From a virus, in IMG/VR virus record IMGVR_UViG_3300046642_000884, positions 1 to 64,000 of that record: DNA of 64,000 nt; one strand, given 5' to 3'. A program made the translations under genes and the position numbers. Positions within the stretch are counted from its first letter, which is position 1, and each line of letters begins with the position of its first letter. The notes under the pieces were generated by a model. It saw only the letters and a program-made list of their open reading frames with translations, was not told the origin of the DNA and searched no databases. Below, in pieces: positions 17,831 through 46,944 of the stretch.

Positions 17831-17844
17831 TTATAAAAGTGGGA

Positions 17845-18150
17845 TTTTTCTGTTGCCAAGATAATCCCGAAACTCCGCTTAGCTGTTAGGCAGCCAAGGC
17901 AAGTGGGAACTGTTCGTCGTTCTCTATTTTACGAGCCACTCGGCCAGCGATATCGTCTCGGTTTTAGCTTCAGTGATGTTCGATCCTTTCACCCCCATCA
18001 GGAACACAAGAAATTTGCCTCGTTCTACTCTTACGTTAAGTTACTGATAAAAGTCGGAAGAACTTGCAATTCTTGCGCTCCTGGTGGAGGTGCAGGGAAT
18101 GAGCCCTGGTGACAAACACCTATTTTGAACGTCATCAACGATAAACAAGA
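17845..18150 (-). ncRNA. ssrA: tmRNA, circularly permuted (two-piece)
   Basis: On the minus strand an acceptor piece comes first: T-arm-like CAGGG(6)CCCTG at 18093-18108, acceptor strand CACCTCC, then A and CCA (18082-18092). After an 85-base spacer the coding piece starts GGGGGTG (17990-17996), which pairs with CACCTCC, followed by AAAGGATCGAAC, the D-loop analogue. Its tag frame, 17924 to 17886, reads ENDEQFPLALAA stop, directly after AAAATA, as in E. coli ANDENYALAA. The resume codon would be GAG. An RNA stem GGGATT/AATCCC and T-run follow. The acceptor-first order is that of alphaproteobacterial split tmRNAs. Confidence 0.85.
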
Positions 18151-18237
18151 CACACTAGGTTTATCCAGATTAGCATTATAGCCGTATGTGGCTGCTTTTA
18201 GTGGACGTCCTCTGAACTCCTAATGTATCCTATGATA

Positions 18238-44432: not shown

Positions 44433-44509
44433 TGGGGCTCTAGGCGAGAATCGGACTCGCATTCTTCCATTACTGTTACCTGTTTAGGAGACAGGACAGA
44501 TACTAGAGC
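44433..44509 (-). tRNA. tRNA-Arg (CCT), nested D-arm
   Basis: Acceptor GCTCTAG/CTAGAGC, anticodon arm CCTGT-CTCCTAA-ACAGG, T-arm GCGAG-TCCGATT-CTCGC, CCA encoded. Only TATCTGT separates acceptor and anticodon stems; the other D-strand AGA, with TGG, lies after the anticodon arm. Confidence 0.75.
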
Positions 44510-44512
44510 AAT

Positions 44513-44595
44513 TGGCGATCGCCGCAGGATTCGGACCCGCATTTTCAGCTCCAATTACGGTTACTGAGGTAGAAGCTCAGCTCGGCTAGGCGACC
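44513..44595 (-). tRNA. tRNA-Arg (TCT), nested D-arm
   Basis: Acceptor GGTCGCC/GGCGATC, anticodon arm CTGAG-CTTCTAC-CTCAG, T-arm GCGGG-TCCGAAT-CCTGC, CCA. TAGCCGAG precedes and GTAATTGGAGCTGAAAAT follows the anticodon arm; AGC pairs GCT. Confidence 0.8.
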
Positions 44596-44814
44596 TTAAA
44601 ACCCTCGAATAACTTTCATCGCGTTATCGATAGCTCGTACTGCACAATCGTCGTTTGGATGTCTCAGTATATGCTTATTAAGATGACGGACCTTGTTATG
44701 CTCGCGGGTATGGCGAAGCTTATAAAGCTTTGCGTAATCCTGACCACGATGGGCGCGGCCGTGTTTGCGCTGCTTCTTAGACTTTTTTGCCTTTTTAAGT
44801 TTGGCAACAACCAT
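44596..44814 (-). CDS. Small, highly basic protein
   Basis: 72 residues; first 45 are mostly Lys, Arg and His (KLKKAKKSKKQRKHGRAHRG). AAGGAGAAAAG site; expressed from the 44893 promoter. Likely nucleic-acid binding by charge; it adjoins a tRNA, so RNA binding is possible. Confidence 0.65.
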   Translation of the reverse strand: MVVAKLKKAKKSKKQRKHGRAHRGQDYAKLYKLRHTREHNKVRHLNKHILRHPNDDCAVRAIDNAMKVIRGF

Positions 44815-44892
44815 GACTTTTCTCCTTTTGTTTAGGTTACTTCGTCATAGCTGTTGCTCCTTTGAATAGTGTTAAAGTAGTCGTTCATCTTA

Positions 44893-44921
44893 TTTATAAC
44901 AGGACCTACACCAGATGTCAA
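44893..44921 (-). promoter_or_regulatory. Early promoter
   Basis: AACAGTTG, TTGACA (44916-44921), 17 bases, TATAAA (44893-44898), 79 bases before the basic protein gene. Confidence 0.8.
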
Positions 44922-44931
44922 CAACTGTTTT

Positions 44932-45006
44932 TGGTTGGGGATCGTGGATTTGAACCACGAAATTCGGAGTCAGAGTCCGATGGTTTGCCAGTTAGCCTAA
45001 TCCCCA
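44932..45006 (-). tRNA. tRNA-Gln (CTG)
   Basis: Acceptor TGGGGAT/ATCCCCA, anticodon arm TCGGA-CTCTGAC-TCCGA, T-arm CGTGG-TTCAAAT-CCACG, CCA encoded. Confidence 0.9.
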
Positions 45007-45023
45007 ATAAAGTAAATATAACG

Positions 45024-46145
45024 ATGAAAAGACTTCGATCAATTATCAGTGAACTGTCGTTGCCCGTAGGCGTTAACGATGCCGAAGTCCGATTAAAGGC
45101 TGCTGGATGGCGACGTCTGGGCGGTGGTATGTTTGCCTCTGTTTATGGCAGGCAGGGTAAACCTTATGTCTTGAAGCTGTTTCAGGACCGAGACCACGCC
45201 TATAAACGGTTCCTGAAATTGGTCCAATCGCAGCCGGATAATCCACATTTTCCTAAATTACGCGGATTGCCTATGCGGGTTAATAAGAATTATACAGCAG
45301 TCCGAATGGAGAAACTTCAGCCATATAATGATCGGAGTGAGCGGCAACAAGAGGACACAAAAGATATCAATACTTATATATACACTATGAGGGATTTACG
45401 CAGGGAGGTTTCTGATCTTAAGTTTAAAGGAAATCGTAACGACAACACTATTCGGCGGATTAAAGAATTAAATAAAAAACTAGAACCAATATTTCACGGT
45501 CGAGCACAATTAGCCAAGGCCTTAGATGATATACAGAAGCACGTTATTGATCCAACTGGTGCTAATTTTGATCTACACGATGCTAATATTATGTGGCGAG
45601 GAAAAGTACCAGTATTAACTGATCCGGTAGCTTATGGAAATAGTGCTGAGGAAGCTGCGCCACCTCGTGCGCCTCGCCAATTCCAGTTTGTTTTTGATCA
45701 CCCGATTGTCCGCCCCCCAGCACCAAAGCCGTTACGACAAGTTGTACGTCCTGTAGAACCCCCAGAACATTTGCGAAAAAGTTTATTTGCGCGCGGCGGA
45801 TTTGGCCGGCCAGTTGGCAGAAGGGAAGCTGCAGCGGCTCTGAATAATGCTATTAAACAAGTTAAGCGTCATGTTGGTAAAAACAAAATTGTCTATGATC
45901 TATTAATCAATCCGAAGGGAACTACTAAAGAAGAAATTCTCGCCGCAACTGGTTGGAAACAAGTCTCAATAGCAGGAATGGCTCATGCAATGGGGCTTGA
46001 AGTGCGAAAAGTTAAAAGACGGAATCTACGTGGTAGAAAAGAAACACGATATTTTGGTTATATTCCATCCCATACAATAGTGATAAAAAAACGGGGACGG
46101 AATTTACGGGACATACTTCCTAGAAGAGCAGCTATAGATTTTTAA
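45024..46145 (+). CDS. Kinase-like protein with DUF3489-like tail
   Basis: 373 residues on the plus strand, start at ATG 45024. GGGMFASVYGRQGKPYVLKL (34-53) resembles a kinase Gly-loop and lysine, and NFDLHDANIMWRGKVPVLTD (about 180-199) the catalytic HD-N and DP motifs. After a Pro-rich linker, IVYDLLINPKGTTKEEILAA then TGWKQVSIAGM is a DUF3489-type winged helix. May phosphorylate a host or phage target; the fusion is unusual. Confidence 0.6.
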   Translation: MKRLRSIISELSLPVGVNDAEVRLKAAGWRRLGGGMFASVYGRQGKPYVLKLFQDRDHAYKRFLKLVQSQPDNPHFPKLRGLPMRVNKNYTAVRMEKLQPYNDRSERQQEDTKDINTYIYTMRDLRREVSDLKFKGNRNDNTIRRIKELNKKLEPIFHGRAQLAKALDDIQKHVIDPTGANFDLHDANIMWRGKVPVLTDPVAYGNSAEEAAPPRAPRQFQFVFDHPIVRPPAPKPLRQVVRPVEPPEHLRKSLFARGGFGRPVGRREAAAALNNAIKQVKRHVGKNKIVYDLLINPKGTTKEEILAATGWKQVSIAGMAHAMGLEVRKVKRRNLRGRKETRYFGYIPSHTIVIKKRGRNLRDILPRRAAIDF

Positions 46146-46165
46146 GATGAATAGGGTATTGATAA

Positions 46166-46249
46166 TGGCGATCCACGCAGGACTCGAACCCGCATTTTCA
46201 GCTCCAGTTACGGTGTCATGCGTTCGAAGCGCACGTCGGCTAGTGGACC
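46166..46249 (-). tRNA. tRNA-Arg (TCG), nested D-arm
   Basis: Acceptor GGTCCAC/GTGGATC, anticodon arm GTGCG-CTTCGAA-CGCAT, T-arm GCGGG-TTCGAGT-CCTGC, CCA. TAGCCGAC before and ACCGTAACTGGAGCTGAAAA after the anticodon arm. Confidence 0.8.
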
Positions 46250-46250
46250 A

Positions 46251-46333
46251 TGGCGATCACGAGGAGATTCGAACTCCTATTTCCAGCTCCAGTTACGGTT
46301 ACTAACTTCGCAGGCTAGTTCGGCTACGTGACC
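46251..46333 (-). tRNA. tRNA-Arg (GCG), nested D-arm
   Basis: Acceptor GGTCACG/CGTGATC, anticodon arm CTAGC-CTGCGAA-GTTAG, T-arm AGGAG-TTCGAAT-CTCCT, CCA. Same TAGCCGA ... TGGAGCTG arrangement. Confidence 0.8.
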
Positions 46334-46459: not shown

Positions 46460-46657
46460 GTGCTTATTAAAATTCAACGTCGAGAATTGGTAACAGTAGG
46501 TATTTTATACTACAGGCCTGACTTTGTCAATATCTTACAGGAATTTTATTGGCAGATCGACGATGAAATTCCACAATTACCTAGAGTCCATCGGTTCCTT
46601 AACTATTGGAAAACCGATATTGATGCGGTCATTCGTAGTATCGAGGTCTCGTATTAA
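46460..46657 (+). CDS. usg: Usg family protein
   Basis: 65 residues, GTG start. LVTVGILYYRPDFVNILQEF, YWQIDDEIPQLPRVHRFLNY then WKTDIDAVIRSIEV matches Usg, a small family essentially restricted to Alphaproteobacteria. Function unknown. ATAAATA ends four bases before the GTG. Confidence 0.75.
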   Translation: MLIKIQRRELVTVGILYYRPDFVNILQEFYWQIDDEIPQLPRVHRFLNYWKTDIDAVIRSIEVSY

Positions 46658-46944
46658 TTTTCAAGCCAATAACCCGGATTTTGTATAACGATGATCATTC
46701 GTCTTGATTCAACATTACTGTTGAATTCTTTGCCCCCTACCATTACCTAACATCCATTTAAGAAATGAGAATGCACACTCGTCGGAGAACTTGGGGTTGC
46801 TTCAAGTAGAGATTATCGCGTTTCACTTTACTCGTCTCTGTGATTCTAATCCTCACCTCACGGTGGACGGGAGTTACCCGCTACTTGTGCATTAGAAGTC
46901 CGGAGTTTCCTAGCCGTAGCTCGATCATCTAGGCTTGAAAAGAT
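46658..46944 (-). ncRNA. rnpB: RNase P RNA
   Basis: About 285 bases. P1: TTTTCAAGCC at the 5' end pairs with GGCTTGAAAA at the 3' end. P2: GATGATC/GATCATC. P3-like AGC-TACG-GCT. Conserved block CTAGGAAACTCCGGAC (cf. GAGGAAAGTCCGGGC), CGGGTAACTCCCG, CACC-GTGA-GGTG, ACAGAGA, and near the 3' end ACAAAATCCGGGTTATTGG (cf. ACAGAACCCGGCTTATCGG). Shorter than bacterial RNAs (350-400). It follows tRNA-Phe and tRNA-Glu with four bases or fewer between, so one transcript may supply both ribozyme and substrates. Confidence 0.9.

Follow-up and report, generated by a model that had tools for sequence, protein, structure and literature searches.

Four genes for putative arginine tRNAs lie on the minus strand of the window, by which we mean the whole 64,000-nucleotide stretch analysed (positions 1 to 64,000 of IMG/VR record IMGVR_UViG_3300046642_000884). 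They fall in two pairs, tRNA-Arg(CCT) at 44437..44509 with tRNA-Arg(TCT) at 44517..44595, and tRNA-Arg(TCG) at 46170..46249 with tRNA-Arg(GCG) at 46255..46333, separated by a protein kinase-like ORF on the opposite strand (44862-46145, +; phrog_15752, described as a host-transcription-inhibiting kinase). Each gene has a 7-bp acceptor stem, perfect or with G-U, an anticodon arm with a 5-bp stem, a 7-nt loop and U33, and a 5-bp T stem. CCA is encoded after N73 in each case (44433-44435, 44513-44515, 46166-46168 and 46251-46253, respectively), and N73 is G in three genes and C (44436) in the CCT gene. Acceptors, T-arms and CCA, which a first-pass annotation of this DNA had called intact, were thus seen in all four genes, with the qualification that the T-loop of the CCT and TCT genes (44433-44595, -) begins UCC, not UUC (C at 55).

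The acceptor and anticodon stems are separated by a 5' spacer of only 7-8 nt (UAGCCGAN; UAUCUGU in the CCT gene), and the anticodon arm is followed by a 3' spacer of 18 (CCT), 23 (TCT), 24 (TCG) or 23 (GCG) nt, for example UAACCGUAAUUGGAGCUGAAAAU. These measurements, and the strand, agree with the 7-8 bases before and 18-24 bases after the anticodon arm reported in the first-pass annotation. The canonical cloverleaf criterion, a D hairpin between the acceptor and anticodon stems, was therefore unmet in the window genes; a conventional D-arm, which that annotation had named as the outcome that would refute it, was ruled out as impossible in 7-8 nt.

Standard tRNA finders dealt poorly with these genes. 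ARAGORN missed three of the four and called the GCG gene Val-AAC. The Rfam tRNA model (RF00005) gave 34.0, 25.6 and 24.3 bits for three window genes, with the CCT gene unlisted, and its alignment of two of them (34.0 and 25.6 bits) deleted the D-arm and inserted about 20 nt past the anticodon arm. A model of the nested fold described below scored 53.4 (CCT), 89 (TCT), 83.1 (TCG) and 86.5 (GCG) bits, against 25.4 for the highest-scoring ordinary tRNA in the window. Minimum-energy folding recovered the nested fold for none of the four genes; the CCT gene alone scored strongly (z -3.6), but in a fold with the anticodon arm disrupted, and the folding was thus uninformative. It is common for tRNA transcripts to escape correct recovery by minimum-energy folding.

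Covariation among homologues supports a nested order in which the putative D 5' strand is followed by the anticodon arm, the D-loop and the D 3' strand. In the TCT gene (all parts on the minus strand), the 5' strand of an outer D helix, AGC at 44585..44587, is predicted to pair with GCU at 44547..44549 (alignment columns 9-11 with 51-53), and the 5' strand of an inner helix, CGA at 44582..44584, with CCG at 44558..44560, both assignments resting on covariation. The anticodon arm (44564..44580), placed by gene structure and covariation, is nested between the two D strands. The transposed D-loop, UAAUUGGA (A14 A15 Y16 U17 G18 G19 A20; 44550..44557), was identified by its conserved motif and by the base-20 and 15:48 statistics given below. 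In the CCT gene (within 44437..44509, -) the inner helix is CUG:CAG and the D-loop UAAUGGA. The first-pass annotation had proposed an anticodon arm nested in the D-arm, with a D-loop-like motif and a second D-strand on the 3' side, and the homologues agree with this, but it had overlooked the inner helix (CGA:UCG and others). Its AGC:GCT pairing held for three genes, whereas the TCT:AGA pairing claimed as its counterpart in the CCT gene did not: UCU:AGA competes there with CUG:CAG and gets no support from the nested-fold model, which favours the inner helix.

The covariation analysis proposed in that annotation used 41 homologues that have 8-nt 5' spacers, aligned by sequence alone and scored against the proposed structure, and both helices co-varied far above the shuffled and slid controls. 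Pairing was possible in 95.3% of cells compared with 64.3% in shuffled alignments, 301 cells were changed on both sides compared with 85, and the covariation score was 0.839, compared with 0.215 when shuffled and at most 0.17 when the partners were slid. The outer pair 10:52 occurred as GC (26), AU (11) and CG (3). Outer helix variants included AGC:GCU, AAC:GUU, AGU:ACU and ACA:UGU, while the inner helix appeared as CGA:UCG, CCC:GGG, CAC:GUG, CUC:GAG, CUG:CAG, CAU:AUG and others, its third pair often being non-standard. RNAalifold yielded the nested fold unaided from the homologue alignment.

An earlier, looser screen for nested genes had demanded inner pairing and was thus biased, and its unbiased repeat, which constrained neither spacer pairing nor anticodon, gave 121 unique genes. 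Inner-helix cells were paired in 307 of 363 cases in this set, compared with 196.5 +/- 6.9 (maximum 223) in 5000 shuffles. These counts are uncorrected for relatedness; the hosts span several phyla, and a set clustered at 80% identity, itself drawn with the inner-pairing condition, gave the same picture. The 7-nt subtype, to which the window CCT gene belongs, has a freely varying inner helix and a short outer helix that is not resolved; MAFFT misregistered the inner 3' strand of this subtype, and pairs were counted from anchors instead. Purine 37 and U33, the criterion for the anticodon arm, were present in the nested genes, homologues included. A 7-bp acceptor, a 5-bp T arm with a TTCRA-type loop and an encoded or addable CCA were likewise found, except for the T-loop of the window UCC copies, that sequence being confined to the window CCT and TCT genes among the 121.

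A complete D-loop, U-A14-R15-Y16-U17-G18-G19-N20, forms the bulge between the inner and outer 3' strands. Position 15 was compared with position 48, taken as the base just before the T stem, and the pair was A:U in 114 genes, G:C in six and G:G in one. This lone G:G case is the gene of phage phiCbK; an unusual 15:48 G:G pair is also known in E. coli tRNA-Cys (PMC9976931). As 15:48 co-varies, the elbow is seemingly retained even though the strand arrives from the other side, and on these comparisons it appears to be kept in the nested tRNAs.

Anticodons in the 121 genes were without exception those of Arg (TCT, TCG, ACG, CCT, GCG; 84 genes) or Ile (GAT, TAT, CAT; 37 genes). A CCG nested copy was found in Brevundimonas phage Bajun. 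A Val-TAC-like nested gene (L327:4, +) was the only candidate outside Arg and Ile. The suggestion in the first-pass annotation that only Arg isoacceptors have this architecture consequently holds within the window but fails in its relatives, which include Ile-GAT, Ile-TAT and CAT genes. Position 20 was A in 83 of the 84 Arg genes, all four window genes among them, and U in 33 of the 37 Ile genes. In E. coli, ArgRS relies chiefly on A20, and IleRS reads D20 together with the discriminator (PMC9976931). The combination of A20 and C35 required for Arg identity was satisfied. Base 20 was fixed in some of the search patterns but the anticodon in none, so the association between the two was not built in. 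N73 was A in all 37 Ile genes; in the 84 Arg copies it was A in 28, U in 29, G in 26 and C in one (A or G in 54 of 84), a mixture that, together with C73 in the window, would count against a strict E. coli-type A/G73 set of Arg identity bases. In a quick tree built from the 121 genes, five Arg/Ile changes were required as opposed to about 32 when shuffled, indicating that the two specificities form few groups, with the proviso that trees from 80 nt are weak. The conserved identity bases point to function, expression and charging being inferred.

The source phage is a tailed one whose baseplate and ssDNA-binding genes are of T4 type. All Arg tRNAs found in the window's 184,965-base record are nested and none is ordinary; by wobble reading, which is inferred, they could together read all six Arg codons. 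A bacterial class A RNase P RNA (46654-46941, -; 148.7 bits) lies inside the tRNA array and adjoins the nested GCG gene, and given this RNA the source phage may process its own tRNAs. A tmRNA gene is present at 17838-18190 (-), matching both the alphaproteobacterial (53.4 bits) and the permuted (52.7 bits) tmRNA families. Elsewhere in the record, on the opposite strand and far from the array, a 120-nt tRNA-like match (G000:C1:106380-106499; L429:181-300) carries some 45 additional bases that separate its acceptor from its T arm and may be an inserted element. Across nested-gene loci the median number of ordinary tRNAs was seven, with at least five in 76 of 133 loci. In 17 of 93 cases the locus also contained an ordinary tRNA with the nested gene's anticodon, fewer than the 27.4 +/- 3.6 expected (P = 0.0016); against this, some relatives do adjoin an ordinary tRNA of the same anticodon.

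An initial pattern scan returned mainly chance matches and was useful only after filtering. Homologues were sought in IMG/VR with a pattern combining the D-loop-like motif and the T arm and leaving the anticodon unconstrained; matches were obtained in 115 contigs, and later scans added more. The nested design for Arg and Ile is present in well over a hundred other phages, mostly unannotated. Among isolates, blastn identified 30 Caulobacter and eight Brevundimonas phage records, several Vibrio phages, Microbacterium phages Pumpernickel, Zooman and A3Wally, Streptomyces phage TunaTartare, Pseudomonas phage Boevelstad, Maribacter phage Panino and Limnohabitans phage DC31; representatives were checked, and the genes were unannotated in nearly all of these phage records. 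Phage phiCbK, published as the sole phage of its group without an Arg tRNA (PMC3556154), carries an unannotated nested Arg-ACG gene at NC_019405 52333-52411. This copy is identical (83/83 bases, 100%) across 21 Caulobacter phage records, including that of Rogue, a genome 62.6% identical to phiCbK (PMC3556154).

A pattern scan of 84,980 genomes located nested genes in contigs of three MAGs only (L234; L235, L250 and L295; L264). Contigs L250 and L234 carry phage-type genes; L264 yielded no match. No nested gene was found in 398 genomes of one phylum, a weaker result than the larger scan, given that only 11 candidates per genome were scored without a positive control. Phage T5 was rejected as a carrier, its Arg tRNA being ordinary. 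Within T5 RNAX, a stable RNA of unknown function, we observed a tRNA-like piece (L428:15434-15504, -) that has an acceptor, a T arm and CCGUAACUGGU but lacks a proper anticodon arm; conserved in more than 300 T5-like phage records, it might be what is left of a nested tRNA. Several other features were noted in passing. One nested tRNA (L132:2260-2345) has a 9-nt near-duplication inside the anticodon loop. The deposited tRNA names of A3Wally (L431, MZ150783) apparently treat the anticodon as a codon; one entry, for instance, is Val(gtt), against Asn(gtt) in the related phage Zooman. In Vibrio phage VspSw_1, a GOLLD RNA (185 bits, L307:9266-9686) falls within the tRNA region.

We consider it highly probable that the nested genes encode Arg, and elsewhere Ile, elongator tRNAs with a rearranged D-arm. 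Gene structure, nested pairing, a conserved D-loop, 15:48 covariation, identity bases and array context are seen in the sequences, while transcription, processing, charging by a host synthetase and decoding are inferred. In the arrangement envisaged, the 5' D strand would lead directly into the anticodon arm, and the RNA past that arm would climb back to pair with the inner half of the 5' D strand. The complete D-loop would then bulge out before pairing resumes with the outer half of the same strand, and a short A-rich linker would join the outer helix to the T arm. The anticodon arm and the inner and outer helices are inferred to stack coaxially, to about the length of an ordinary anticodon/D stack. 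The bulged D-loop could still reach the elbow, through 15:48 and through G18 and G19 with the T-loop, and would present base 20 to ArgRS (A20) or IleRS (U20). In the source phage such tRNAs would cover all of the phage's own Arg decoding.

It could be envisaged that the proposed fold is right but non-translational, the RNAs acting as sponges or decoys that occupy host proteins which bind or cleave tRNAs. Phages do counter tRNA-targeting defences with tRNAs of their own, and among the RNAs of T5 are stable tRNA-like species whose function is unknown. Such a role seems improbable, however, in view of the amino-acid-specific position 20 and N73, the intact anticodon loops, the CCA or CCA-ready ends, the location in tRNA arrays, the complementarity with ordinary isoacceptors and a source phage in which no other Arg tRNA was found. 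It is very unlikely that these are D-armless tRNAs in which, as in mitochondrial tRNA-Ser, the 5' spacer would be no more than a connector, with the 3' spacer forming a class II-like arm. The Rfam alignment, with its deleted D-arm and insertion after the anticodon arm, is what this would look like, but bases of the 5' and 3' spacers co-vary in two helices, and the 3' spacer shows a full D-loop motif, with covariation at 15:48, and is without a conserved hairpin; one relative (L153:919-1008) does have an extra variable-arm hairpin past the D-loop. The D-armless and class II folds were both rejected by the covariation between the spacers. That the genes are pseudogenes or remnants of recombined tRNA genes, as two UCC T-loops, one C73 and the failure of tRNA finders might suggest, is scarcely tenable given the compensatory change, the conservation across unrelated phages, the 83/83 identity in 21 Caulobacter phage records and the selection already seen on the helices.

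Most likely, then, the nested genes give rise to Arg and Ile tRNAs that work in translation after charging by host synthetases; both their expression and their charging are inferred. It is also probable, with somewhat less assurance than the elongator assignment itself, that they represent a second topology for a working elongator, in which phage Arg and Ile tRNAs supply the D-loop from the 3' side and are charged by ordinary host ArgRS and IleRS via base 20. Its recurrence in well over a hundred other phages makes the design look like a real second way of building a tRNA, so far as can be judged from genes whose expression and charging remain inferences from sequence. If nested tRNAs work, the L shape and elbow would be reachable by a second strand path, which would constrain ideas on tRNA origin and on what synthetases, EF-Tu and the ribosome need. 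Because standard finders mostly miss nested genes, the tRNA sets of many phages, phiCbK among them, are mis-stated. Nested tRNAs would also offer a ready natural scaffold for tRNA engineering. The rearrangement may, speculatively, be kept as an escape from host nucleases or modification enzymes that read a normal D-arm.

To our knowledge, the cloverleaf arm order is treated as universal, and the known odd tRNAs lose or resize arms. No odd tRNA with a re-threaded arm, and no description of the nested fold, was found in the searched literature; preprints and many journals lay outside that search, and a prior description is not excluded. A review of odd tRNAs covers altered stem lengths and lost arms, with no phage and no permuted case (PMC7609411). 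The nested topology is therefore new relative to the searched literature, and by its parts and likely function the molecule is likely a tRNA. With canonical bacterial class I tRNA-Arg and tRNA-Ile it shares the acceptor, anticodon and T arms, U8, A14-R15-G18-G19, 15:48, the position-20 and N73 identity bases and the anticodons. It differs in that there is no D hairpin, the D-loop and D 3' strand sit 3' of the anticodon arm, and the 5' D strand pairs with strands flanking the D-loop on both sides. D-armless mitochondrial tRNAs (e.g. tRNA-Ser AGY) have a similarly short acceptor-anticodon connector but no D-stem, whereas nested tRNAs retain a D-loop and two D-like helices in a new arrangement. 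Allo-tRNA (8/4, 9/3), tRNA-Sec and tRNA-Pyl are likewise natural departures from the standard arms (PMC7609411), although in these the stem lengths are altered and the arm order is unchanged. Permuted tRNA genes and permuted tmRNA are alike only in the word 'permuted': there the permutation affects the ends of the gene and leaves the mature tRNA in normal order, while in nested tRNAs it is the RNA whose elements follow a different order. Finally, the tRNA-like domain of tmRNA has acceptor and T arms and a long helix replacing the anticodon and D elements, and is without anticodon or decoding, in contrast to nested tRNAs, which have a standard anticodon loop.
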